From a virus: DNA of 43,879 nucleotides. The stretch is taken from the IMG/VR virus record IMGVR_UViG_3300036900_000205, positions 1-43,879 of that record. One strand, written 5' to 3'. The notes beneath the pieces are model-generated. The model was not told where the DNA came from, ran no database searches, and was given only the letters and a program-made list of their open reading frames with translations. Positions 2,834-43,177 of this stretch are shown here, one piece after another (the first letter of the stretch is position 1; every line of letters begins with the position of its first letter). Position numbers and translations under genes: made by a program.

Positions 2834-2842
2834 ATTTGTGGG

Positions 2843-2871
2843 GCATATGTGCCATGTATATAAACAATATG
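2843..2871. repeat. CATATG-type 11-bp phased array, site 2 (parA upstream)
   Basis: CATATG at 2844 and AATATG at 2866 are 22 bp apart, with a degenerate TGTATA at the middle 11-bp position (2855). It lies between the terminator and the parA start at 2916, the expected place for an autoregulatory operator or centromere of a ParA/RHH system. Confidence 0.5.
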
Positions 2872-2915
2872 GGCGACACATCTGGGGCCTAGTGCACTAT
2901 ATTTTATGCAGCCTT

Positions 2916-3596
2916 ATGATTTGCGCGATCGGAAATATAAAAGGCGGAGTCGGCAAAACGACGCTCGCTGTCAATCTCGTAGTGGGGCTGGCGAAGCGGG
3001 GCCAGGACCTTCTTTTGATCGATGCCGATGAACAGGCCACGGCGTTGGCATTCACTGAACTGCGCACGACGCGCCATCCTGATGTGCCTACCTATACCGC
3101 CGTGGCCCTCCATGGCGCATCCATCCGTACCCAGGCCAGGCAGCTGGCTGGCCGCTACGATCACATCATCATTGACGTCGGCGGCCGCGATTCCATCTCC
3201 CTGCGCGCTGCGCTCACAGTTGCCAACCTGGTGGTGATTCCCGCCGCGCCTCGATCGTTCGATCTCTGGGGCTGCGACCAGACCGCGGAACTGGTGCGCG
3301 AGGCGCGCGAGATCAATGAGCTGCGCGCCGTTGCTGTCCTCAATGGTGCAGATGCCGCCGGACGTGACAATGCGGACGCCCTGGAGGCCCTGCGGCTTCT
3401 CGATGGCATCGAAGTATCGCCCTGTAGCCTGGGGCGCCGTAAAGCGTATCCCAATGCCGCCGCCGAGGGCCTGAGCGTGTTGGAGTTCCTTGATCCGATC
3501 AACCGCGAGGGAGCCCTCAAAGCCCGCGATGAGTTCTCGCAGCTCCTCGCGGCTCTGTTTCCGGAGAAACTGAAAAATGATCGCAAAAAAGCCTAA
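2916..3596 (+). CDS. parA: ParA-family partition ATPase
   Basis: A 226-residue deviant-Walker ATPase that drives low-copy plasmid segregation. Residues 1-15 read MICAIGNIKGGVGKT, with the ParA/MinD signature lysine in KGGVGKT (9-15), followed by the LLIDADEQ switch region and an IIIDVGGRD motif. I choose ATG 2916 because it places the Walker A at the usual distance from the N-terminus. An in-frame ATG at 2838 would add 26 residues of unrelated sequence. The length matches small (type Ib) ParAs with no N-terminal DNA-binding domain, which pair with ribbon-helix-helix partners. The next gene is such a protein and overlaps this one by 20 bp, so the two form a partition operon, isolated upstream by two terminators. 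Confidence 0.93.
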   Translation: MICAIGNIKGGVGKTTLAVNLVVGLAKRGQDLLLIDADEQATALAFTELRTTRHPDVPTYTAVALHGASIRTQARQLAGRYDHIIIDVGGRDSISLRAALTVANLVVIPAAPRSFDLWGCDQTAELVREAREINELRAVAVLNGADAAGRDNADALEALRLLDGIEVSPCSLGRRKAYPNAAAEGLSVLEFLDPINREGALKARDEFSQLLAALFPEKLKNDRKKA

Positions 3597-4134: not shown

Positions 4135-4899
4135 CGGTAGAGCGGGCCGGGCATTGCGGCGGAAGATGAAATTAAGCCCGGTTACCTTCCGCCCCTTATT
4201 GATCGCGCGCCATTCGATGAGCCAGCCGTCATTGCGGAGTTCCTTGCAAGCTGGCTCGATAACTTTTTTCCGTACCCATGCGAAATTCTTGCGTGTGGTT
4301 TCGGTCACATTCATCGAGGTATTAAAGTCCTCGATTGAGATTTGCGCCCAACCGTCGCCGTCTTCATTTGTGTAAGACGCTAAAAGCTCTAGCATTTTCA
4401 AGCTATAAATCGACCGCAGCGGCGCTGCCTCGCCCAGCTGATATTTAGTGAAGTACTTCGTCAATCCCATGAGATGCGGTACGATTTCGCGAAAAAATAC
4501 CACTTCTACCCAGCCCTGCTTTTGGTAATAAGTCGCGCGCCCAATCCATCGAATATCCGTTTTTTTTACATCTTTGCTTCGGCTCAAGCGCCGATGTTCG
4601 GGCCAATAAAAATACGATTTTCTGTCAAATAACTTTTGAGCTGCATCTTGCAGAGCTTCATATGCTGTGTGGACCTCGATCCCGAAAGCGCGAGCGTATT
4701 CCTCGGCTGAGATTCTCACAGTCGGTTCATCTATCGGCCTATCGCGGCGACTGTCTAGCCGGGAAATGGCATAGATGATCAGGCGTTTTTCCGCATAGCT
4801 TAGGTTCGATCCTGCGCGCGCCAGCGCATTGCTCATAACAATCCAGCGTTCCGGGGCCGGATGCTCGATCTGATTATGCGAGAACTGAGGGCTTTTCAT
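4105..4899 (-). CDS. Rep_3 (RepB-type) plasmid replication initiator
   Basis: A 264-residue initiator of the Rep_3 family, with the two winged-helix halves expected. The first half begins near IVMSNALARAGSNLSYAEKR, the usual Rep_3 opening, and runs through an ISAEEYARAFG region. The second contains LRSIYSLKMLELLASY and a C-terminal GRKVTGLNFIF strand. These proteins bind iterons, open the origin and load the host replisome. Three iterons lie directly upstream at 4975-5035. The ATG at 4899 has a good AAGGG site. The gene converges on the zinc-ribbon gene with a 30-bp overlap. With ParA it shows that the element can replicate as a plasmid. Monomers probably initiate while dimers repress. Confidence 0.9.
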   Translation of the reverse strand: MKSPQFSHNQIEHPAPERWIVMSNALARAGSNLSYAEKRLIIYAISRLDSRRDRPIDEPTVRISAEEYARAFGIEVHTAYEALQDAAQKLFDRKSYFYWPEHRRLSRSKDVKKTDIRWIGRATYYQKQGWVEVVFFREIVPHLMGLTKYFTKYQLGEAAPLRSIYSLKMLELLASYTNEDGDGWAQISIEDFNTSMNVTETTRKNFAWVRKKVIEPACKELRNDGWLIEWRAINKGRKVTGLNFIFRRNARPALPLFALTTTLQ

Positions 4900-5266
4900 T
4901 TCTGCCCTTCAACTCTTTCAATCCGCTCCTATTGTGACCAAGTATCAAGCAAGGTACATGCCTGTGGAAAACACTCGGAATTTGGCACAATAGATCGGAA
5001 TTTGGCACATTAGACTCGGAATTTGGCACAATACACAGGTCTAAATTACTGATTATGCTGGACATCTATACCTTAGAAACAAGGGAAGAAACAAGTAAGA
5101 GAAAAGTACAAGGGCGCTTTTTGTGAATCTGTGGGAATTCCCCCGAAAAAACCTTTCCCAACTAGGGCAAAAGCAAAAGGCCAGAGGCTAAATCCCTTAC
5201 CTTCGTGCCGACCGAGGGACGGCTCCCCGCAGATTCCGGTTTCCGTCAGACTCTGAAAAGTTTCCG
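4900..5266. other. Candidate replication origin region (rep upstream)
   Basis: About 370 bp without a gene between rep and the early operon's last gene. It holds the rep ribosome binding site, a TGTGGAAAA sequence near 4963 that is one base from a reverse DnaA box, three iterons, an AT-rich stretch (5040-5110), and the tandem repeat entering at 5239. These are standard parts of an iteron origin. I could not place a promoter with confidence. Confidence 0.6.
4975..5035. repeat. Three direct repeats (iterons) upstream of rep
   Basis: Copies begin at 4975, 4995 and 5016, so the spacing is 20 and 21 bp (about two helical turns). Consensus: TCGGAATTTGGCACAWTAGA. Only 1-2 bases vary. Location and spacing match Rep_3 iterons. 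Confidence 0.88.
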
Positions 5267-5280
5267 TCAGACTCTGAAAA
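5239..5280. repeat. Perfect 21-bp tandem repeat
   Basis: Two identical 21-bp units (5239-5259 and 5260-5280), each starting GTTTCCGTCAG and ending ACTCTGAAAA. The second unit contains the stop codon of the gene ending at 5267, so the first is either a duplicated gene end or an extra binding site at the edge of the origin. The 21-bp period equals that of the iterons, though the sequence differs. Confidence 0.8.
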
Positions 5281-7071: not shown

Positions 7072-7319
7072 GGTTGCTCCTTCGCCCACTTCACTGCACT
7101 CTCTACGAGATGTTCCCATCTGTCCGATTCTCTAATGTTCGCGGCCAACGAGCAGACCAGATACCAGGCCAGATTCGCTAATTGTTGCTCTGTTAGCTCT
7201 GCCGCCTTCTGCCGAAAGAAATTGCAGTTGTCCTTATATTTCTGAACTTCATTGTTAAACATCTCTGGCGACATACCATGCGATGGGTTTACCGGTACTG
7301 GGTCGTATTGCTCGGTCAT
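7068..7319 (-). CDS. Hypothetical protein
   Basis: An 83-residue, mostly helical, acidic protein from ATG 7319 (MTEQYDPVPVNPSHGMSPE), with a helix rich in Gln/Leu/Ala in the middle. No known motif. It overlaps both neighbours by 4 bp: the helicase loader upstream and the XRE regulator downstream. The placement next to the loader hints at replication, without direct evidence. Confidence 0.65.
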   Translation of the reverse strand: MTEQYDPVPVNPSHGMSPEMFNNEVQKYKDNCNFFRQKAAELTEQQLANLAWYLVCSLAANIRESDRWEHLVESAVKWAKEQP

Positions 7320-8029
7320 TTTTTGGCTCTCCAATCCGGCCCGGTCATGTCGACCCCGACGGTCATCTGCTGCAGCCGGCTGAACATCCTTGGCCCGATG
7401 CGTTCGCCTAACGTCTCCTGGCGCACGGCGCGCTCATAGTCATTGCGGACCTGGGCGCCGGCAGCCAGGTTGGGCAGGTTGGTAGTCACAATTACGGGAA
7501 CCGTACGGTTATAGAGTCCGCCGATGAGCAGCTCGATGGTTTCAAAAATCCAGTCTGTCGGCCGCGCCGCGCCGAGCTCGTCGATCACTACCAGGTCAGC
7601 CGAAAAGATGGGGCGCAGGATCTGGCTTTGCGTCTCGCGCGCTGCATCGTCATAGCTCGATCGCAGCCGGTCGAGCAGTTCGCGCACGTCGACGAAGCGG
7701 GCCTCGAGCCCCTTGGTATCGATCAGGGCGCGCGCCGTGCTGACCGCCAGGCGGGTTTTCCCGGTTCCCACACTGCCCGTAAACATCAGGCCGGTTTTGG
7801 TCTGCCCAGGCACGAATTCTTCAATGTAGCGCCGCGCCAGGAGCAGGGCCTTGCGCGTATGCGGGGCGGGTTCGAAGTTAGCCAGGTCGGCGCCGGCGTA
7901 TTCGGTGGGGCTCCCCAGCCTCCCGAGTCTCGCCCGCGCCTGTACTACACCCTGGCAGCCGCAGGGGGTCGATCCGCGCTCGGTCCGGATCAAACCAATC
8001 CCGCCGCATTGATTACATGATGTGCCCAT
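7316..8029 (-). CDS. DnaC/IstB-like helicase loader ATPase
   Basis: A 237-residue AAA+ ATPase of the DnaC type, from ATG 8029. An N-terminal zinc knuckle (CNQC at 5-8, CGC at 23-25) precedes the ATPase core. Walker A is GSVGTGKT (85-92), Walker B is LVVIDELGA (146-154), sensor 1 is VIVTTNLP, and an arginine-rich end (GERIGPRMFSRL) fits the arginine finger. Such proteins deliver the replicative helicase to the origin or primosome. No helicase gene is seen here, so the host DnaB is the likely partner. The start lies 17 bp inside the upstream gene. The alternative upstream start would add a proline-rich stretch unlike DnaC. Confidence 0.88.
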   Translation of the reverse strand: MGTSCNQCGGIGLIRTERGSTPCGCQGVVQARARLGRLGSPTEYAGADLANFEPAPHTRKALLLARRYIEEFVPGQTKTGLMFTGSVGTGKTRLAVSTARALIDTKGLEARFVDVRELLDRLRSSYDDAARETQSQILRPIFSADLVVIDELGAARPTDWIFETIELLIGGLYNRTVPVIVTTNLPNLAAGAQVRNDYERAVRQETLGERIGPRMFSRLQQMTVGVDMTGPDWRAKK

Positions 8030-8330
8030 TGCCGGCCTTCCTGGGCGTCTTGAGGCGTCCGGACGGTTTTTGGCTGGGGTGGATGCTGGCATCCTGGTCC
8101 GGCGCGCTGGCGGTGCCCTGGCTGGCCACAGGCGCCCCTAATACGGCGGCGGCAGATGGGTGATAGGAGACAATAGCCGCCCCATCCAGAGCTGCGCCCA
8201 GCTCGTTGCATTTCCGCAGCGCCATCCAGCGGGTTGGATAAAACAGCGCCTTGTCGATGCGGGCCACAATTCCCAGCGGGCCGACATATTGCCGATCGCG
8301 GGTCATAATCACGAAAAACTCGGGATTCAA
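8013..8330 (-). CDS. Hypothetical protein
   Basis: A 105-residue protein. The first half looks like a small mixed domain (FFVIMTRDRQYVGPLGIVAR) and the second half is Pro/Ser/Lys-rich and probably disordered. It starts with ATGA coupling to the upstream gene, and its end overlaps the helicase loader by 17 bp. Function unknown. Confidence 0.6.
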   Translation of the reverse strand: MNPEFFVIMTRDRQYVGPLGIVARIDKALFYPTRWMALRKCNELGAALDGAAIVSYHPSAAAVLGAPVASQGTASAPDQDASIHPSQKPSGRLKTPRKAGNGHIM

Positions 8331-8653
8331 AGGCTTCTCCTTTTATTCGCCTCCGGGGGAATGGCCTCGTTTGTTGCCTCGCCCCTGGCCTTGGCTAGCA
8401 GCGTCGCTATCCAGACCCAGCCTTCGCGCTGGTAGATCCGCTCGAGTCCGGCATACATTTCCGCTGCTGTCCGGAACAGATGAGCGTTCGCCCGCTCCTC
8501 GATTTCGCCAAGGCCGCCCATTAGAATGGCGATGCCGCCCGGCGCCTCGGGCGCGCGAATGATGAATCGGGCCCCAGTCCAATCGCCGATGGCTGCATCA
8601 AGTTCGAGTAGTTCCCATGGCTGGGGCGTGAAGTCCGGCATATCCTCGCTCAT
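8327..8653 (-). CDS. Hypothetical protein
   Basis: A 108-residue protein from ATG 8653 (MSEDMPDFTPQPWELLELDA). Much of it looks helical (LGEIEERANAHLFRTAAEMY), with a WVWIATLLAKARGE segment. I cannot assign it. A longer frame upstream runs antiparallel in the ATPase gene and is not credible. It is coupled to the ATPase stop by ATGA. Confidence 0.65.
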   Translation of the reverse strand: MSEDMPDFTPQPWELLELDAAIGDWTGARFIIRAPEAPGGIAILMGGLGEIEERANAHLFRTAAEMYAGLERIYQREGWVWIATLLAKARGEATNEAIPPEANKRRSL

Positions 8654-10359
8654 TGCAGAGCCTCCGCAAAATCTTTGGTGAGCCGAATCTCGCTGGAACC
8701 TTCGATCAATTCCAGAGTGCGCAGTCGACTCAAGGCATTGTTGAAGCCGCCGCCGGTGGCCGTGTACTCGCTCTCCTGGGCCAGTTCGTCTTTGGTCATC
8801 GAGCTCTGGAGGGCATTGGCCAGCACGCTCAGAATCGTGCGTTCGGCCCGGCCCAGCTTGCTTTGCCAGTGAGCCAGCAGCTGCGGCCCGGTGGGCAGCG
8901 GCTGGTAGTCGCCCAGCGCCTGGGCTCCCGCGTCGGTCAAGGTGAGCGGGTCCGAGCCGGTCAGCCAGCCCATCGAGCGGCACTTCGAGACGGAGTTCGA
9001 GAAGCCGCCGCCGTTGACCGCGTAACCGGCGTAGGCGGCAATCGTCGCCTTGGCGCTGGGGCCACGCTGCGCCAGCACGGTGAGGATCGACCGCTCGGCC
9101 TTGCCCATTGGCACGCCGGCGCCGCGCGGCAGGGGCTTCATGCCTTCGCCCTTGGCTTGAACGATGGCCGGCTTCACGGCAGCCTGGATGGCTTGACGGG
9201 CTTGTTGCCCCAACTTGGGCGGCGTCCAATCGTGATTGCCGATGATCTTTTCCAGTGCGGTCAGCACTGTCACACACTGGGCAATGTTCTTGCCGAGCAG
9301 CTCTTGCAGGTGCTCGCGATTGGCTGCGAGAACGCGTCCGATCTCAGCCTCCTGGGCGGCGGCCAGGGCGGCGCGGTCGATGGTCTCGATGCTTCCCTGC
9401 TTCTGGGCAAGCTGGCGCTTGAGCGCGGCAATCTCGGCGCGCAGCTTGGCGGGGTCATCGGCTTCAGCCTTCTCGATCACCTGCTGGAGATCCACGCGAA
9501 GGGCTTCGACATCCATCGGCGTAAGCACAGCCGCTTTGCGTTTCTGTCCCACTTTGGGCGTTGCCGAGGCATCGAAGGTAGTCTTCTGGTTAAAGCGAAA
9601 GCGGTCATAGATGCGCAGCCAGGACGGCGACCAGACATAGCCCTCGCCTTGCGCCAGGCCCGGCAGCTTCCCGACCAGCTGGCGATCGGCGCCGGCTTCC
9701 TGGACCCACTCCTCGAGCGCCTTGCGTTCGTGGGTGCCGTTGACCTGGAGCACAAACAAACACTCGACCTGGGACAGCACTTCCTTGTTGATCGACTGGG
9801 GGCGCTGCGAGATCATGGTCGCGCCGATGCCGTAGTTGCGGCCGAGGCGGATGATGTTCTCAAACGCGCCCAGCATACGGGCTTCATCTGGCATCACTCG
9901 CTGAGGGGCGAACAGCTGCGCTTCCTCAACAAATAGGTGCACCGCGGATTTTTGCGATTTCTTGAGATGAAAGAATTCTTCTGCGAAGTCGGCGGCAAAG
10001 CGTTTTCGTTCGCCTTGCCGGAACGCGGAGATGTCGAGAATCACGGAGACGGGTTTGTCGATCAGCAGCCGGGCCAGCTTAGTTCCCGCGTCGGGCAGGA
10101 TGGGCACGTCACCGTGCTCGCCGCCCACAATGAAAATGTCTTTGCCCTTACTCTTGCCATCGGCGGCCACGCGCAGGCCGTACCAATTGCCCACTGGGTC
10201 CACAATAATGATTTGTGCGTGCTGGTCGAGCATCTGCTCGGCCACCAGTCCAGCCAGATAGGTCTTGCCGCTGTTCTTTTTACCGATGCAGCCAAAGGTC
10301 TGCGTGACACCATCGAGAGGCAGAGCGAGATTCTTGGCCAGGTGCAATTGGTCATTCAC
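8650..10359 (-). CDS. HerA-like (DUF87) ATPase with two C-terminal winged-helix repeats
   Basis: A 569-residue protein from GTG 10359. The N-terminal ATPase has Walker A GKKNSGKT (26-33), an IIIVDPVGNW strand, LFVEEAQLFAP as the Walker B helix and an SQRPQSI region, all typical of HerA/FtsK/VirB4-type DNA translocases. A coiled-coil linker follows. The C-terminus holds two similar segments, ERSILTVLAQRG...GGGFSNSVSKCRSMGWL and ERTILSVLANAL...GGGFNNALSRLRTLELI, each readable as a winged helix. Together they suggest a motor that binds specific or structured DNA. It sits in the same operon as an SMC-like ATPase, so a role in DNA end processing, recombination or genome handling is plausible. The start overlaps the preceding stop by 8 bp (GTGAATGA). 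Confidence 0.82.
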   Translation of the reverse strand: MNDQLHLAKNLALPLDGVTQTFGCIGKKNSGKTYLAGLVAEQMLDQHAQIIIVDPVGNWYGLRVAADGKSKGKDIFIVGGEHGDVPILPDAGTKLARLLIDKPVSVILDISAFRQGERKRFAADFAEEFFHLKKSQKSAVHLFVEEAQLFAPQRVMPDEARMLGAFENIIRLGRNYGIGATMISQRPQSINKEVLSQVECLFVLQVNGTHERKALEEWVQEAGADRQLVGKLPGLAQGEGYVWSPSWLRIYDRFRFNQKTTFDASATPKVGQKRKAAVLTPMDVEALRVDLQQVIEKAEADDPAKLRAEIAALKRQLAQKQGSIETIDRAALAAAQEAEIGRVLAANREHLQELLGKNIAQCVTVLTALEKIIGNHDWTPPKLGQQARQAIQAAVKPAIVQAKGEGMKPLPRGAGVPMGKAERSILTVLAQRGPSAKATIAAYAGYAVNGGGFSNSVSKCRSMGWLTGSDPLTLTDAGAQALGDYQPLPTGPQLLAHWQSKLGRAERTILSVLANALQSSMTKDELAQESEYTATGGGFNNALSRLRTLELIEGSSEIRLTKDFAEALQ

Positions 10360-10492
10360 TCTCTTCGATTTCCTCCGTCTCCAGGTCGTTAAAAATCGTC
10401 TTGTCATCCCTGAAGCGATCGACCGCTTCGTGCTCGTCATCAGCCTCGATGATTCTTTCGGTCTCGGGCAGGATGACTCTGTACTTAGGCAT
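10352..10492 (-). CDS. Small acidic protein
   Basis: A 46-residue, strongly acidic protein (MPKYRVILPETERIIEADDE, ending DLETEEIEESE). The opening strand followed by DDEHEAVDRF resembles a small single-strand-helix domain. It starts 7 bp inside the upstream gene and ends 8 bp inside the ATPase gene, so its translation is probably coupled to both. Acidic miniproteins in early operons are sometimes DNA mimics, but nothing specific supports that here. Confidence 0.6.
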   Translation of the reverse strand: MPKYRVILPETERIIEADDEHEAVDRFRDDKTIFNDLETEEIEESE

Positions 10493-10715
10493 CGGTTCCT
10501 CCTTCATCATCAGCCGCGGCCGCTTCCAGCCCCGCGATCCGCGCCTCATGGTCAGAGGCGATGAGCAGCGCATATTTCCGCAGCCGGTTCAGGCCGCGAT
10601 TAGTTTTCTGCAATTCTTCGATGGCGAGTTGCAGATGCTCCTCCGTTTTTAGTTGCATTCCGCCCAGCAGCTCCACCTGTTGCGCAATGGCTTCGATCCG
10701 TTCGTCAATCGTCAT
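10485..10715 (-). CDS. Small coiled-coil protein
   Basis: A 76-residue, almost wholly helical protein (MTIDERIEAIAQQVELLGGM, later EEHLQLAIEELQKTNRGLNR) with heptad-like leucines and an acidic tail. It probably forms a coiled coil. ATGA coupling with the gene upstream and an 8-bp overlap downstream support it as a real gene. Function unknown. Confidence 0.7.
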   Translation of the reverse strand: MTIDERIEAIAQQVELLGGMQLKTEEHLQLAIEELQKTNRGLNRLRKYALLIASDHEARIAGLEAAAADDEGGTDA

Positions 10716-10921
10716 AGTTCCTTCTGCTCTTCCGTCTTCGTAAATGTGATGCCGTGCTTAATGATGGCTGAGGCTATGTCATCAGTCACATCGAATTTCT
10801 GGCCGGTGACAAGGATGTGCGATCGTCGTTTCGAATTCTTTGTGGGATGGACTTCCTTATAAGCACGGGTCGCATAAAAGCGCCGGCCCAGCTCCGACCA
10901 GAAAATGCGAATGGGCTTCAT
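10712..10921 (-). CDS. Small basic hypothetical protein
   Basis: A 69-residue protein from ATG 10921 (MKPIRIFWSELGRRFYATRA), basic in its first half, with ILVTGQKFDVTDDIASAII in the second. The start overlaps the zinc-finger gene stop as ATGA. No family recognised. Confidence 0.65.
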   Translation of the reverse strand: MKPIRIFWSELGRRFYATRAYKEVHPTKNSKRRSHILVTGQKFDVTDDIASAIIKHGITFTKTEEQKEL

Positions 10922-11091
10922 TGCGTGGTCTCCTTCGTTCTGCGGTTCTTGACCGTGACGGCCAACAGGACCATAGGCATGAAACATTTCTTGCAAAACG
11001 GCATCTCGCGACACTCTTCAGCGGGCCGGTCTTCCTTTATTCCGCAGCCTACGCATCTGAGTTTGAAAGTTGCGATTTGAATTTTAGGCAT
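10918..11091 (-). CDS. Small zinc-ribbon protein
   Basis: A 57-residue protein from ATG 11091. It contains C-V-G-C then C, and C-K-K-C (LRCVGCGIKEDRPAEECREM, FCKKC), enough for one zinc site. The start lies 8 bp inside the SMC-like gene's end, so translation is coupled. Such miniature ribbons usually bind nucleic acid or a polymerase. No direct evidence here. Confidence 0.65.
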   Translation of the reverse strand: MPKIQIATFKLRCVGCGIKEDRPAEECREMPFCKKCFMPMVLLAVTVKNRRTKETTQ

Positions 11092-12448
11092 CTTTTGCCG
11101 CCTCTTCGGTTTCCTCATTGCGGGCCACAACCATGCCATCCTCGAGCACGATCCCCACTTTGCCGCTCGAATCGACGCGCGCCATCCATACCTGGAAATC
11201 ATGTTGCTCGGCCAGCTCCGCGACAACCTTCAGGCCTTCCTCGTCCAACGCTTCGCCGTGGCGGATGCAGAGCACGCGCAGCTTAGGATTGCCAGCCATG
11301 CCGATGAGGCTGGCGATGCGGATCTGTTCGCCCTCGCCCAGGTTCTCGAGGGGAATGCCTTTATACTTCACTTCGCTCTCGTCAAAGGTGAGCCCGTCTA
11401 CGGGGATCTTCGCCTTGGCCAGCGCGGTGCGCTTCTTCTCTTCTCGAGCTTCCATGCGCCTGGTGAGGTCCTCCGCCGCGCGCCGCTTCTGGTCGAGCTG
11501 CGCCTGCAACTTATCCCATTGGGTACGGGTGTCGATGGCCCGGTTGGTGCGCTGCGCGCTCTGCAGCTCGGCCGTGAGCGCGGTCACATCGATGGGCTCG
11601 CCGGCCGACGCCGCCCGGAACTCCTGCTCGGCGCGTTTCCATTCCTGCTCGATTCCCTTCTGTTCGGTCTTGAGCGCAGCCAGCTTCGCCTCGGCTTGCT
11701 TCAGCTGTTCGCGCATCATCTCGATCGCTTTGTGCTGCGTTTCCGCCTCCTCCGCTTTGCGGGTCTTGTCCATGCCCAGCTGCGCGGCCTTCGCGCCCAG
11801 CTTTTGCTTGGCCTGAAATATCTCCTGCGCTTTGCGGTTGAGTTCGCCGGCGTCCTCGAGCTTTTTGAGGATGCCCGATTCGTCCAGCTTTTCTCTGGGT
11901 AGACCGGCCAATACGTTCAAACCCTTGACCTGGCCCTCGAGCAAATCGGCTTCCTTCTTGATCGCGTAGCGCTCGTCGTAGTCTTTCTGGTTCGCTTCCG
12001 CGATCGCATCAAAGTCCAGATCCACCTTGGCCGTCTTGCGCAGCTCCGTTACCTGCTCTTTTGGGGTCATGCGAATGAATTCGAGCGGGTCGAAAGTGAG
12101 TGAGGTAAACAGATCGTCGAGAAAGTCCTGCGGCGTTTTGTCGCGCTTGCCGTTGACCATCTCGAGGGTCAGCGTGGGGGGATTGCCTTCGCGTCCCAGA
12201 CTCCGGGTGATGATGCAGTCGCCCAGGTTGAGTTTGACTTTCATGCGCTCGGCGCCGTTGCGGATCACGGTTTGTTTTTTCGCCGGCAATGCCTTCTGGC
12301 CCTTCAGGGCGAACCATAGCGAATCGAGTACGCTGGTTTTTCCCTGCCCGTTCTTGCCCGTCAACATCACCACGCGCTTGCCGTCCGGCTGGATGGCGAC
12401 TACGCGGAGCTTCTTATAGTTCTCCGCTACCAGTTCAATGATTTTCAT
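11084..12448 (-). CDS. SMC/RecF/SbcC-like ABC ATPase
   Basis: A 454-residue ATPase with split ABC halves around a coiled coil. The N-terminus has FxxY-type NYKKLRVV and Walker A GKNGQGKT (31-38). A long charged helical middle (about 160-350) fits an antiparallel coiled coil. The C-terminus has the signature LGEGEQIRIA (370-379), close to the ABC consensus LSGGEQ, and a degenerate Walker B region VLCIRHGEALDEEG (393-406), in which the usual hhhhDE is altered. It is shorter than cellular SbcC but normal for phage relatives. It is the second gene of the early operon, and it probably acts in recombination or DNA-end processing, perhaps with the HerA-like ATPase downstream. Confidence 0.85.
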   Translation of the reverse strand: MKIIELVAENYKKLRVVAIQPDGKRVVMLTGKNGQGKTSVLDSLWFALKGQKALPAKKQTVIRNGAERMKVKLNLGDCIITRSLGREGNPPTLTLEMVNGKRDKTPQDFLDDLFTSLTFDPLEFIRMTPKEQVTELRKTAKVDLDFDAIAEANQKDYDERYAIKKEADLLEGQVKGLNVLAGLPREKLDESGILKKLEDAGELNRKAQEIFQAKQKLGAKAAQLGMDKTRKAEEAETQHKAIEMMREQLKQAEAKLAALKTEQKGIEQEWKRAEQEFRAASAGEPIDVTALTAELQSAQRTNRAIDTRTQWDKLQAQLDQKRRAAEDLTRRMEAREEKKRTALAKAKIPVDGLTFDESEVKYKGIPLENLGEGEQIRIASLIGMAGNPKLRVLCIRHGEALDEEGLKVVAELAEQHDFQVWMARVDSSGKVGIVLEDGMVVARNEETEEAAKDA

Positions 12449-37784: not shown

Positions 37785-39446
37785 TCATCCTGTTAGTCCG
37801 GGCATCCAGTCAGAAAGCCCGAAACCGGGTTCACCTGGTTGCCATTCTTCCTCGGCTTCGGGGAATGGATCTGGCGTGGCGTATTCGGCTTTCCCGTAGA
37901 CGCGGTTGTATGCATCCTGCTCGATGTAGTTCTGGAAGGCCTCTTCATCCTGCATCTCAAAGCCTTCGGCCGCGATCGACGCCGGCAGGTGTGCCGCGAC
38001 CCGGCTCACCGCGCTGGCGACTTCGAACTCCTCCACCATGCCAAAGTGATAGAGCTGTCGGAATACTTCCTGCACATTGCCGATGTGGGCGCTGAAGAGC
38101 AGTCTGCCGCCGAGCAGGTGGGGCTCGGCGCTTTTGATGGCCAGGTTGCGGGCGGTGTCGTCCTGCAGAAAATCTCCCCAGGTGATTTCAACTCGCCAAT
38201 CCTGTTCGAGCGCTTCGTTGCGGATGTGCTGCTGCATGGTGCGGGCGCCCGGAGTGTCCTCGATTTCAACGCGATGGGATTCCCACTTTTTGGCCACGCT
38301 CACCACACGTCGCGCCAGGGCGCTGGGCGTGAGCTGCGCCCGTACCACTTCAACGATGGTCATACGGCCATCACGCTCGATGCCCACGGCGCAGGCCGCG
38401 TTCTTGCACTCGGCGTATTCGAAGCGCCAGGCGATATGCACGTTCTCATCATGCTGGGCAGCATCCTCGCTCACCTTGGCCGCTTCCAGTCTCTCTATTG
38501 GGAATGTGGGTACAAAGTTGCCTTCGGCCACGTTCATGTACTGCGTCCAGTAGGTTTCTGGGTCCAGGGCCTTCTCTTCTCTGAGGAATTGCCATGAAAT
38601 CTGCTCAGGAAACTGCAAAATGACATCGTCTTCAGTCAATTCGTCATCGTCGAGCTTTAAAGCGTGTGGGCGCCGGATATAAGCCGGTTTCCAGAGGAGA
38701 ATTGTCTCCTCGCCGGCCTTGGTAATCATGTCACCGTACAGGTCCATAGGACCGTAGCGCGTTCCGGTGATATCCACGTAGCCGCCTTCGCCCAGCATTT
38801 TCAGATTGAGGTAAAAATTCTTCTTCACCTTACGCAATCCGAATGAGGTTTGGCTGTTGCGGTTGTCCTGCACGTCTTCGCTCTTGATCCAGTCCGGATG
38901 CCAGCCTGAGAGCGATTGCTCGATCGAGACGCCCTTTACTGTGGGGTCGCGGCGGAACTTCGTTCGTGCCGGCGTGGTGAATTCGCCGGCCTTGTTCATC
39001 TTGTGGAGTACGTGTTCGGGAAAGCAAAGATGGAGGGCGCCCCGCGGAGCGCCCTCGGGACAATAGAAGTGGCTGGCCACTTCGGCCACAAATGCATCAG
39101 CCAGGGGAGAGTCGGGCGAATTAGAAGCCGTCATCACCATGACGGCCACATCCGGAAAGCCACATACGAGCTGTACGGTATCGGCAATATTGAAGGTTGT
39201 TTTGTAGGTTTTGCGCGGCAACAGAACGATGCGCCGGCGCTTCCTGCTTTGCTGAAAAATAGGTTTGGTCGGATCTTTCTTAATGAAGACGTCGGCCACC
39301 TGGCGGTGGCTCTCTTCAGTCACCTTGTCGTAGCCCAGCACATATTTGGTGAGCCAGAAAAGATCGGTCTGCATGCGCCAGCGTAGAAACTGGCGATACG
39401 ATTCGTCTTCGCTGATTCGAGCAATGTCGATTTCGTTTTCGGTCAT
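37785..39446 (-). CDS. terL: Terminase large subunit
   Basis: A 553-residue DNA-packaging motor. The N-terminal ATPase has a non-classical Walker A, LLPRKTYKTT (residues 75-84), as in other terminases with PRxxxKTT, a Walker B-like WIKSED (186-191), and coupling residues TASNSP. The C-terminal half reads like the RNase H-fold nuclease: HIAWRFEYAE, ERDGRMTIVEVVR, and later HLLGGRLLFSAHIG. Acidic residues sit at the expected nuclease positions, though the first is a Glu. The length fits podoviral TerL. It follows the His-rich small protein by ATGA. No small terminase is recognised with certainty. Confidence 0.88.
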   Translation of the reverse strand: MTENEIDIARISEDESYRQFLRWRMQTDLFWLTKYVLGYDKVTEESHRQVADVFIKKDPTKPIFQQSRKRRRIVLLPRKTYKTTFNIADTVQLVCGFPDVAVMVMTASNSPDSPLADAFVAEVASHFYCPEGAPRGALHLCFPEHVLHKMNKAGEFTTPARTKFRRDPTVKGVSIEQSLSGWHPDWIKSEDVQDNRNSQTSFGLRKVKKNFYLNLKMLGEGGYVDITGTRYGPMDLYGDMITKAGEETILLWKPAYIRRPHALKLDDDELTEDDVILQFPEQISWQFLREEKALDPETYWTQYMNVAEGNFVPTFPIERLEAAKVSEDAAQHDENVHIAWRFEYAECKNAACAVGIERDGRMTIVEVVRAQLTPSALARRVVSVAKKWESHRVEIEDTPGARTMQQHIRNEALEQDWRVEITWGDFLQDDTARNLAIKSAEPHLLGGRLLFSAHIGNVQEVFRQLYHFGMVEEFEVASAVSRVAAHLPASIAAEGFEMQDEEAFQNYIEQDAYNRVYGKAEYATPDPFPEAEEEWQPGEPGFGLSDWMPGLTG

Positions 39447-40884: not shown

Positions 40885-41196
40885 TTAGGTGATATGCAGT
40901 TCGTTAGCCATCACCATCTGGCCTGTGTCGATTTGCGATTCTGTTTTCTTCCTGGCCGGCCGTCCGGGGCGCATGCCCTGAGTCTCGCGGCGCCACTTCG
41001 CAAACAGTTTGCGTTCCTCCGGAGTTGAGGGCGCATTACAGTAGCGGCATTTGCCGAGATCGCGCCGCTGCCGGCGTGCGTTCTTGAGAATCTTCGCGCA
41101 GGCGTCAGTGCAGGTCACGGCCTTGCGAATAATCCGCGCCTCGGGCACCGGATTGCGGCATACACAACACCAGACTTTCATTGTCTTTGTCTTCAT
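40885..41196 (-). CDS. Zinc-finger-type protein with two Cys clusters
   Basis: A 103-residue protein from ATG 41196. It contains CCVCRNPVPEARIIRKAVTC then DAC, followed by CRYCNAPSTPEERKLFAKW, which read as two zinc knuckles, and a basic tail (RPGRPARKKTES). The start has a GAGGA site and overlaps the nuclease gene's stop as ATGA, so the two may act together. A DNA- or RNA-binding role is inferred. Confidence 0.7.
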   Translation of the reverse strand: MKTKTMKVWCCVCRNPVPEARIIRKAVTCTDACAKILKNARRQRRDLGKCRYCNAPSTPEERKLFAKWRRETQGMRPGRPARKKTESQIDTGQMVMANELHIT

Positions 41197-41564
41197 ACTT
41201 CCTCGATTTTGATTTTATGCAAGAGCCACGCCAAACGTTTTTTGATCTTGTAGACCTGAGTTTTTACTCCTTTAGCATCGAGCACATGATGACCGCTCTG
41301 ATCATCAAAGACGAAATCGGCAATATACGTAACACCGCGCTCCTGGCTATCGCCGGGCACTAACTCGATATGTTTTTGTTCTTGTAAATTCCAGATCGTG
41401 CCGGAGCTGGCCAGTGCATAAAGTCGCGTGGCTACATCTGCCTCGTGTTTCGATGCATATTTGCCAGCGCGCTCATTGCGAAATTTTGAGGGAGCGGCTT
41501 CGCGCTGACCGGTGACGAATTCGGTCCACGCTTGCCGATCGGCTTTGCGGCTCATCCTAGTCAT
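41193..41564 (-). CDS. DUF1064-type endonuclease (Holliday-junction resolvase-like)
   Basis: A 123-residue protein. The core fits the phage DUF1064 family: KYASKHEADVATRLY, an Asp in the YIADFVF strand, LDAKGV and a basic helix (KIKKRLAWLLH). These give the PD-(D/E)xK pattern E, D, D/A-K of VRR-NUC-like resolvases. It could cut branched phage DNA before packaging. Start is 41564, or 41555 if the second Met is used. Neither has a strong ribosome site. Confidence 0.8.
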   Translation of the reverse strand: MTRMSRKADRQAWTEFVTGQREAAPSKFRNERAGKYASKHEADVATRLYALASSGTIWNLQEQKHIELVPGDSQERGVTYIADFVFDDQSGHHVLDAKGVKTQVYKIKKRLAWLLHKIKIEEV

Positions 41565-41883: not shown

Positions 41884-42954
41884 ATGGGCTCGCTGCCGCG
41901 CCATGTGATGTTGCTCGATGTGGGCGAACTTTTAACTTCTATCAAAGGATGGAGTCCCACTCGAAAAGGTATATATCTCGAGTTGCTCGCCTATTACTGG
42001 ATGCGAGGCCATCTTCCCAAAAAGCCTGAATCGTTGGCGCGCATCGCCCAGGTCCCTGCGGCCGTATGGAGAGATGCGGCCGTATTCGTGATGGAGCTGT
42101 TTCATCTGGGCGCTGACGGTGTTTATCACCACCCACAAGTGGATGAGCTGCGTAATGCGTGGCTTGAGAAGCAGCGCCGTATCAGTGAACAACGTCGCAA
42201 TGCGGTCAATGTGCGGTGGGCTAAATATCGCGAAAAACTACGTCAAATCGAGGGGGGAGAAAATCCAGCGAAAACGGCCGATACGGTCGTACAATCTCGT
42301 ATAAAAAATAATCCCCTTCAAGGTTCCCCCTCTGGACTCCCTCTCCTACAACCCCTAAAGCAAAAGCCAGGCAATAACGCGCGCCCGGCGCTCGCGCGTG
42401 GTTTGAGTGCCGAGGCCGGCAAGACCGGTCCGGTTCCGGGCTGGCGGCAGGCCGTCGAGGGGCAGCACAGAAGCGTAAATAAGGCGAAACCGTTGAATAT
42501 ACGCCGTATAGCCCGTCAGGCATCTGGGGGGGTAGGAAAGGCAGCAGGCGGTCGAGAAAAAGGCGGCAGGGTGCCTCCGAGGGGCCGGAATGGGCATTCT
42601 AGCGCCGTATCGGATCGGCAAAATGCCAAGTTTCTGGATGACGCTCGTTTTGCCGGTTTTTTGACCGAGGTAAAGCGTTACTGGAAAGCCATGAACAAAG
42701 AGGGCCCAGCCTGCCCTTCTTCGGACGCTGACAATTCCGCCCTGGCGCAGGTGCTTCGAGATGATCCCGCATTGACCCTTACGCAATTCAGGTCAATGCT
42801 GCACAACCGCGCGGATTCAGCGGCTGCGGGCGAGATCAACCCTTCTGCATTGCCGCGCACCTGGCTGCGCCAGATCGCGGAGTTTGCAACTGGCCCGCTC
42901 GATCGCTACGGCAAGCCATTACGAAGACCAGTGCGCGCTACACGCGCGTTCTAG
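41884..42954 (+). CDS. DUF1376-type replication protein with low-complexity linker
   Basis: A 356-residue protein, start supported by GGAGGA. Residues 1-95 (SPTRKGIYLELLAYYWMRGH, LARIAQVPAAVWRDAAVFVM) match DUF1376 N-terminal domains of phage replication proteins. Residues ~120-240 are basic and low-complexity (GKAAGGREKGGRVPPRGRNG), lacking folding signals, and hold copy (a) of the TCGTAY element. Residues 250-345 (FAGFLTEVKRYWKAMNKEGP, ALPRTWLRQIAEFATGPLDR) form a helical domain typical of the family's C-terminus. It probably works at replication initiation or helicase loading, alongside Rep and the DnaC-like protein. Confidence 0.8.
   Translation: MGSLPRHVMLLDVGELLTSIKGWSPTRKGIYLELLAYYWMRGHLPKKPESLARIAQVPAAVWRDAAVFVMELFHLGADGVYHHPQVDELRNAWLEKQRRISEQRRNAVNVRWAKYREKLRQIEGGENPAKTADTVVQSRIKNNPLQGSPSGLPLLQPLKQKPGNNARPALARGLSAEAGKTGPVPGWRQAVEGQHRSVNKAKPLNIRRIARQASGGVGKAAGGREKGGRVPPRGRNGHSSAVSDRQNAKFLDDARFAGFLTEVKRYWKAMNKEGPACPSSDADNSALAQVLRDDPALTLTQFRSMLHNRADSAAAGEINPSALPRTWLRQIAEFATGPLDRYGKPLRRPVRATRAF
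42280..42304. repeat. Dispersed TCGTAY element, copy a (inside a gene)
   Basis: GATACGGTCGTAC, three bases, CTCGTATAA: two TCGTAY half-sites exactly 10 bp apart, within the DUF1376 linker. Copies b and c share the sequence and spacing. Confidence 0.6.
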
Positions 42955-43036: not shown

Positions 43037-43061
43037 TATACGGTCGTATCGGCTCGTATAA
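43037..43061. repeat. Dispersed TCGTAY element, copy b
   Basis: TATACGGTCGTAT, three bases, CTCGTATAA. Half-sites 10 bp apart, in the gap between the DUF1376 gene and the 43206 gene. A GTACGGTCCGTAT-like sequence lies at 42991-43003. Confidence 0.6.
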
Positions 43062-43100
43062 CCGGAAAACCAGGATGATGATGATGATGACTTCATGATA

Positions 43101-43117
43101 CATATGTTCTGCATATG
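43101..43117. repeat. CATATG-type 11-bp phased array, site 9
   Basis: CATATG at 43101 and 43112, exactly 11 bp apart, directly followed by TCGTAY copy c (43118). Confidence 0.55.
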
Positions 43118-43142
43118 TATACGGTCGTATACGCTCGTACAA
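43118..43142. repeat. Dispersed TCGTAY element, copy c
   Basis: TATACGGTCGTAT, three bases, CTCGTACAA, placed between CATATG sites 9 and 10, so the two element types alternate upstream of the 43206 operon. Confidence 0.6.
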
Positions 43143-43149
43143 CTGCGAT

Positions 43150-43177
43150 CTATGTCCTGCATATGTCGAACATATAG
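43150..43177. repeat. CATATG-type 11-bp phased array, site 10
   Basis: CTATG (43150), ATATG (43161) and ATATA (43172), each 11 bp apart, ending about 30 bp before the 43206 start codon. Confidence 0.6.

Follow-up and report, generated by a model that had tools for sequence, protein, structure and literature searches.

A HerA-like motor with a twin winged-helix tail whose recognition residues mostly match within a protein and differ between relatives

The closest described counterparts of the motor considered here are the HerA translocases, among them Sulfolobus HerA (Protein Data Bank, PDB, entry 4d2i), HerA–NurA, and the HerA–Sir2 and HerA–DUF4297 defence complexes. Two published accounts (PMC10853773, PMC12839542) propose that rapidly evolving winged helices next to HerA motors guide defence machines to invaders. 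We analysed a complete IMG/VR virus record of 43,879 bases (IMGVR_UViG_3300036900_000205; this whole stretch is called the window), in which one operon encodes a HerA-like motor protein and a Rad50-like ATPase. The HerA-like protein resembles the HerA translocases in motor fold and motifs (Z ∼20 to 29), whereas it has no HAS-barrel, is seen without NurA or a common nuclease partner, and adds a C-terminal tail of two winged helices. Foremost, the recognition residues of these winged helices are matched within a protein and differ between close relatives.

The motor and its matched winged helices

The AlphaFold2 model of the HerA-like protein had a mean predicted local distance difference test (pLDDT) score of 90.4, and its residues ∼1–276 superposed on HerA motors [8xav: Z 29.1, root-mean-square deviation (rmsd) 2.4, 246 residues aligned; 4d2i: Z 28.1, rmsd 2.9, 245 aligned]. 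The closest PDB sequence matches of the motor were likewise HerA proteins, and Pfam DUF87 and HerA_C matched the open reading frame (ORF) at 8650–10440, but under their curated cut-offs. Like HerA, the motor has a Walker A motif, an acidic Walker B (EEA), and a GRxxGIG...QRP motif. The N-terminal HAS-barrel is absent: ∼25 residues lie ahead of Walker A, and the aligned part of the matched PDB HerA chains begins at residues ∼110–152, after their HAS-barrel. We therefore call the protein HerA-like rather than HerA proper. A variable linker connects the motor to the two C-terminal winged helices, and from the model we infer assembly into a hexameric ring and DNA translocation. On moderate evidence, the gene probably starts at GTG 10359 (569 aa) and not at ATG 10440, because this GTG overlaps the upstream stop and the tblastn matches of relatives begin near it (at residues 13–32 of the longer frame, in which the GTG is residue 28).

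Both tail repeats show the winged helix-turn-helix fold in the secondary structure of the full-length model, with high-confidence helices at 420–432, 437–444, and 451–462 in the first and at 504–515, 523–529, and 537–548 in the second. Scans of relatives covered the best 80 of 244, 378, and 319 relatives, and the structure models were built with 60 and 67 alignment rows. After leaving out proteins with less than 90% profile coverage or fewer than 120 bits, those containing X, and identical ones, 136 full-length proteins including that of the window remained; removal of those at least 95% identical or with short motors left 133. The two winged helices of one protein had a mean identity of 0.44, and the same winged helix compared across relatives had 0.31–0.36 when motors were 25–75% identical and 0.46–0.47 when motors were more identical. 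In a joint alignment of 60 proteins, the pairs G450/G536, G452/G538, N455/N541, and S458/S544 agreed in 96–98% of cases against 25–43% expected, and many other tail positions agreed no more than expected. The best match falls on the first half of the third helix and on the turn that leads into it, a region that in ArsR/MarR-type winged helices is the DNA-reading surface.

Across the 133 proteins, within-protein agreement at seven recognition positions was 92.5%, compared with 30.8% after permutation (maximum of 2000 permutations, 37.8%); the two copies were identical at all seven positions in 91 proteins and at six or more in 122. Nearest motor relatives (mean motor identity 73%) agreed at only 46.5% of these positions in the second recognition helix and 44.9% in the first, and a protein's own pair was the better match in 106 cases, equal in 16, and worse in 11. 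Shared ancestry thus does not explain the matching. Matched recognition residues used the same codon in 46.4% of cases against 41.6% expected (798 positions), close to the values for other matched residues (47.2% against 42.2%, 2588 positions), and this near-random codon use argues that the match does not stem from recent DNA duplication. Together with the chance-level agreement at many other positions, it rules out recent duplication or gene conversion as the source. Since the choice of the seven recognition positions and of the control positions followed inspection of the first 60 proteins, a fresh sample with fixed positions was the fair test. From 79 new full-length proteins we removed 17 with at least 90% identity to earlier ones and 1 redundant protein; of the resulting 61, 60 had two domain matches. 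Within-protein agreement in this sample was 93.2% against 29.3% permuted, nearest relatives agreed at 32.6% and 33.5%, and control positions agreed at 6.6% against 6.5% permuted. The preliminary description of this locus had taken the winged-helix pair for the sequence-reading end of the motor; the matching in 133 plus 61 proteins supports the pair as a candidate for that role.

The matched residues also switch rapidly. On the motor tree of the 133 proteins, the second winged helix underwent 106 Fitch changes and fell into 91 recognition types, and the fresh proteins held 52 types. The motors of the window and of locus L012 are 87% identical, and their recognition types differ, with the two copies alike within each protein. 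Two further relatives, L025 and L028, have 976 bp of motor DNA in common at 95.6%; their tails diverge after the motor except for a short linker stretch, and each tail is internally matched. Exchange of the tail pair as a unit fits better than stepwise change, because poorly matched proteins are few (11 of 133); a whole-tail swap at the DNA level was seen in this one pair. Two motors can also occur on one contig. The two ends of one phage contig (L254 and L298) carry HerA-like motors of different recognition types, each nearly matched internally, and the ends of another (L025 and L076) carry a full and a partial copy that are 97.7% alike over 656 bp, perhaps an assembly feature.

On the simplest reading, selection acts on both winged helices of a protein to recognise a common thing, which varies from one element to the next, and tails pass between elements. 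The thing recognised is most likely a DNA address, because a HerA-type motor is attached and by analogy with the FtsK gamma domain and KOPS. On balance we favour a DNA translocase with two readers that share one fast-switching, element-specific target, the Rad50-like protein being separate and optional. The HerA-like protein would then form a hexameric double-stranded-DNA translocase with as many as twelve winged helices, all reading a single short target that is specific to each phage or plasmid and probably consists of repeats or of two halves; tail binding would load or orient the ring at the target, and ATP-driven pumping would move the element's DNA during replication, recombination, or segregation. 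This phage-plasmid carries both ATPases in its early operon, together with a DnaC-like loader. More tentative is a broader proposal, possible though doubtful, of a motor class with a matched, switchable address code, in which phages and plasmids would exchange the reader pair as a cassette, redirecting the motor to other DNA, and the pair would confer an incompatibility-like self-recognition for DNA handling.

Several observations count against the DNA-address translocase. That the tail binds DNA and that the motor forms a ring and translocates are things we infer. Known winged-helix Pfam families matched the tails weakly, in several of 62 domain rows, and matches of the tail to PDB sequences had E values of 0.013 or worse. 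Between motors that are more than 75–80% identical, domains at the same position resemble each other about as closely as the two copies in one protein do, and in 11 of the 133 proteins the copies agree at no more than five of the seven recognition positions. Positions 421/505, 437/523, and 446/532, outside the third helix, also agree above expectation, and the matched surface is therefore wider than one helix. Repeats were not clearly more frequent near the HerA-like gene, where 27 of 116 full-size windows had them, than in control windows (17 of 91), and a type-specific twin-word search yielded only homologous, coding, or simple-repeat matches and no target site. HerA-like loci seldom carry the tested recombination genes (7 of 80 viral and 7 of 66 genome loci), and the window has no recombination nuclease, annealing protein, or single-stranded-DNA-binding protein of the tested kinds. 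As to individual repeats, ACGGTCGTATNNGCTCGTA and TATGTYCTGCATATGT of the window were absent from all 239 loci searched, and TACGGTCGTAT was found in none of eight relative records. A GC-rich hairpin, GCGCTACA...TGTAGCGC, is kept in three mycobacterial loci (L182:2096, L018:1193, L184:2068), one of them a plasmid, ∼5.7–5.8 kb upstream of the motor gene; we did not take this twin-word hairpin as the cognate site.

The matching could also arise from contacts between proteins: the winged helices would pack on each other homotypically or on the same partner, and their variable surface would be a protein address, by which subunits recognise each other or a partner specific to the element. The data show only a shared, fast-changing surface, which reaches the starts of helix 1 and helix 2, and the gamma winged helix of FtsK contacts both DNA and a protein. 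We nevertheless consider a protein address unlikely, as the best-matched residues sit at the DNA-reading surface noted above and no ORF of at least 60 aa in the 239 loci carries this winged helix outside the motor gene.

The HerA-like family occurs in phages, bacterial genomes, and plasmids. Among 160 HerA-like loci (130 clusters at 75%), the recurrent neighbours were DUF5131 (25 clusters), C5 cytosine methylase (17), DnaQ-like exonuclease (11), primase-helicase (10), and ParB-like protein (10), each family being named from a single exemplar. Neighbour clusters lacking the HerA strand, including the top two, were treated as antisense shadows, and a cluster in 18 of 130, which we take to look ASCH-like, was not counted as a gene family, its exemplar having no Pfam match and matching only itself. 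In six plasmid records one place covered at least 80% of the HerA-like protein, tail included. Five actinobacterial plasmid stretches that we inspected had no common partner and no Rad50-like gene; an FtsK/SpoIIIE-domain gene lay inside the stretch on three of them. These neighbourhoods bear on a second alternative, an element-versus-element weapon or defence, in which the readers find competitor DNA, the motor captures it, and an arms race varies the target. The motor does match models of HerA defence proteins, and the accounts cited above place fast-evolving winged helices with HerA in defence systems. Those systems carry a nuclease, whereas no common nuclease partner stood out beside the HerA-like family, the DnaQ-like exonuclease being the nearest exception; instead, the recurrent neighbours in phages and plasmids are those listed. 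We judge a weapon or defence to be quite improbable.

The Rad50-like ATPase and its relation to the motor

ORF 11084–12448 was assigned to phrog_1499 (E 1e-85). Its model (mean pLDDT 89.3) aligned best with the heads of Rad50, SMC, and RecF proteins, with which it has the fold in common (3qf7: Z 19.3, rmsd 8.5, 292 aligned; 4ncj: Z 18.7, rmsd 3.3, 246 aligned). The protein has a Rad50-type ABC head with a coiled coil and retains Walker A. It differs from Rad50/SbcC in its short helical arms, in the absence of a zinc-hook CxxC (0 of 67 aligned relatives), in its degenerate signature and Walker B motifs, and in having no SbcD/Mre11. The canonical signature is LSGGQ/E and the canonical Walker B DE; read by eye in the alignment, the window has LGEGE and RHG, and the family mostly SxAEQ and RDG. 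A Mre11-type phosphoesterase (Metallophos) was found in none of 12 records searched and in 14 of 14 control genomes. Because of the signature and Walker B differences, we name the protein Rad50-like rather than Rad50. Judged from its motifs, it probably binds ATP and may hydrolyse it poorly. In many Arthrobacter phage records it carries the seemingly mistaken label ‘MRE11 double-strand break endo/exonuclease’.

With the window protein as query, tblastn matched 233 phage records out of 50,697, and in 87 the match covered 80% or more of the protein. Of 80 viral Rad50-like loci, 40 had a recombination exonuclease of the tested kinds no more than 6 kb away and in the same orientation, 28 had a recombinase or annealing protein, and 46 had any tested recombination gene. 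The exonucleases include the RecE-like phrog_434 and the exonuclease VIII-like phrog_412, and the named phages with recombination genes near the Rad50-like gene include Caulobacter phage Sansa and Arthrobacter phage Sonali. From this gene context we take the Rad50-like protein as a probable member of phage recombination cassettes, in which it probably clamps or bridges DNA ends for the exonuclease and an annealing protein. Since the window itself has no tested recombination genes, a recombination role here rests on the relatives. In two loci (L127:8868–9935 and L059:5667–6827), phrog_3657, of no known function, lies between the RecE-like exonuclease and the Rad50-like gene, in the place where an annealing protein would be expected.

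The two ATPases are mostly not a pair. The closest relative of the HerA-like protein is in L005 (77–78%), a 104-kb record without the Rad50-like gene. Conversely, the HerA-like gene is missing from L017, which holds the closest Rad50-like relative (75–76%), and from L095. Both L017 and L095 keep the interval from the Rad50-like to the DnaC-like gene, filled with other genes and without the HerA-like one. Searched whole, 13 HerA-bearing records gave phrog_1499 in 2 (L017, obtained through the Rad50-like protein, is not counted). In a profile search, the Rad50-like family occurred in 3 of 80 viral, 2 of 66 genome, and 1 of 6 named HerA-like loci, and the HerA-like family in 4 of 80 viral Rad50-like loci, with one contig counted in both viral sets; these counts are lower bounds, because each locus covers only a limited stretch and some of the contigs are fragmentary. 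The Rad50-like ATPase is an optional neighbour and not a fixed partner.

The association is nevertheless recurrent. Neighbour clustering placed the Rad50-like family in 9 of the 130 clusters, on the HerA strand in 10 of 10 members. Among the loci with both ATPases, L028 yielded only a fragmentary Rad50-like match, situated at a contig end (68 bits), and L059 a weak one (116 bits). Of the nine loci outside the window with both ATPases, six (L059, L101, L122, L127, L186, and L209) have an exonuclease preceding the Rad50-like gene; in L002, L006, and L028 no exonuclease of the tested kinds was seen near it, L028 being cut at the contig end. The preliminary description had seen no nuclease in the operon, which holds for the tested kinds in the window and not for these six relatives. 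It had also weighed a random retention of single ATPases by relatives: each is indeed often alone, yet the co-occurrence is recurrent, same-stranded, and ordered.

That description went on to propose a dedicated two-ATPase complex for genome handling, replication restart, or plasmid protection, comparable to HerA–NurA with Mre11–Rad50 at DNA ends. The two genes do share an operon here, all ten loci that have both genes show the Rad50-like one upstream and on the same strand, and the pair is present even in MW202482, a distant named phage that is the only one of the 50,697 phage records matched by the window HerA-like protein in tblastn. However, each ATPase usually occurs without the other, and a NurA nuclease was found in none of 10 records searched, window included (7 of 14 control genomes were positive), just as the Mre11-type gene was missing from its 12. 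An obligate complex is rejected by the co-occurrence and by the closest relatives, membership in a HerA–NurA or SbcCD system by the absence of NurA and Mre11-type genes from the records searched, and we regard a dedicated complex as very improbable.

The operon and its phage-plasmid setting

The operon reads, on the minus strand, Rad50-like, zinc-ribbon-like, 69-aa, 76-aa, 51-aa, HerA-like, 107-aa, 105-aa, and DnaC-like (Table 1); all genes lie on one strand, and neighbours overlap or abut. An operon joining a HerA-like motor with tandem winged helices to an SMC-like ATPase, as first described, is borne out by the fold models, by phrog_1499, and by this compact layout. The two ATPases had further been said to flank small zinc and coiled-coil genes. 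Zinc-ribbon-like and small genes do lie between them; the coiled coil is judged by eye only. No PADLOC or NCBIfam match was found for the zinc-ribbon-like protein, and no match in Pfam, PHROG, PADLOC, or NCBIfam family searches for the 76-aa protein.

Table 1. Features of the window, with the operon genes in order of transcription
Feature	Coordinates	Strand	Remarks
Rad50/SMC-like protein, 454 aa	11084–12448	−	phrog_1499; short arms, no CxxC hook, degenerate signature and Walker B
Zinc-ribbon-like protein, 56 aa	10918–11088	−	CxxC...CxxC; overlaps Rad50-like stop; relative in L006 at 7964–8134
69-aa protein	10712–10921	−	No function assigned
76-aa small protein	10485–10715	−	Coiled-coil-like by eye
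51-aa acidic protein	10352–10507	−	Ends at HerA-like GTG
HerA-like motor protein with twin winged-helix tail, 569 aa	8650–10359	−	GTG 10359 start preferred over ATG 10440
Motor domain, aa 1–276	9532–10359	−	Walker A GKKNSGKT, Walker B LFVEEAQ, GRNYGIG...SQRPQ motif
Winged helix 1, aa 414–482	8914–9120	−	Recognition helix GGGFSNSVS
Winged helix 2, aa 498–566	8662–8868	−	Recognition helix GGGFNNALS; resembles winged helix 1
107-aa protein	8327–8650	−	Look-alikes in L006 and L095 operons, read by eye
105-aa protein	8013–8330	−	No function assigned
DnaC-like helicase loader	7316–8092	−	phrog_50; downstream in operon
ParA-like partition protein	2838–3596	+	Context gene
Rep3-type plasmid initiator	4105–4899	−	Both Rep3 domains matched
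Three iteron-like repeats, 20 nt, spacing 20 and 21	4973–5033		Adjoin initiator
Large terminase	37785–39446	−	Phage's own packaging motor; context gene

Besides the large terminase, the window encodes a portal and a major head protein, and its plasmid functions comprise ParA, a Rep initiator with its Rep3 domains, and the iteron-like repeats. Because these phage structural genes and replicon functions occur together, the window reads, by its gene content, as a tailed phage carrying an iteron/Rep3/ParA plasmid replicon, that is, as a phage-plasmid. A link between the HerA-like family and the plasmid lifestyle was rejected: in 20 relative records searched, Rep3 was found in none and the ParA-type AAA_31 in 3; on this count the family seems not to be bound to phage-plasmids. 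The terminase and portal also dispose of the idea that the HerA-like protein is the phage genome-packaging motor, which is hardly credible for a family that also resides on plasmids, although phrog_2666, labelled ‘terminase large subunit’ (a label that may cover HerA-like proteins), matches the motor (8650–10359) and the archaeal virus packaging ATPase B204 is a structural relative.

Other features of the record are noted here. No exact end repeat of 10–299 bases was found in it. Two repeat families lie near its ends, TACGGTCGTAT... (43037–43062, 43118–43143, and 42280–42305) and TATGTYCTGCATATGT (43103–43118, 43151–43166, and, inverted, 82–101); both are candidate partition or regulatory sites. 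A 21-bp sequence (GTTTCCGTCAGACTCTGAAAA) is perfectly duplicated in tandem at 5239–5280, and a small ORF at 4874–5065 overlaps the iteron-like repeats and is probably spurious. A DUF1064/phrog_190 protein at 41193–41564, annotated as a Holliday junction resolvase, is a possible phage nuclease distant from the operon.

Significance and comparison with known systems

If the tail pair reads DNA, the 91 recognition types of the first sample and the 52 of the second form a natural experiment set on a conserved motor. The rules by which a DNA pump chooses its substrate would become testable, a double-stranded-DNA translocase might be loaded programmably, and the protein code might be solved by comparing recognition types. 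Matched recognition residues between tandem domains are also a sequence signature by which other twin readers could be found. The phage Rad50-like family, with its degenerate ATPase motifs, poses a second question, separate from the tail.

Among known systems, FtsK with its gamma winged helix and KOPS is likewise a pumping ATPase with a C-terminal winged helix as candidate sequence reader (PMC2680272). The motor described here is nearer to HerA (Z 29) than to FtsK (Z 16.8), and it has two matched readers per subunit whose reader residues change between close relatives. The DUF87/HerA-like genes on actinobacterial plasmids belong to the same sequence family as the window motor, tail included, and differ in that none of the five stretches inspected has the Rad50-like gene. 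In type I restriction enzymes, the specificity subunits likewise change specificity by swapping target-recognition modules on a conserved machine, whereas their two target domains differ and the HerA-like winged helices match. Compared with the published HerA defence systems, the motor here bears the winged helices on its own chain, as a matched pair, and is seen with no common nuclease partner. We found no description of matched winged helices on a HerA motor in the portions of the open-access literature covered, which is no proof that they are undescribed. The motor itself is a HerA-like variant; the finding is the tail that it carries, a matched, switchable pair and candidate twin reader.

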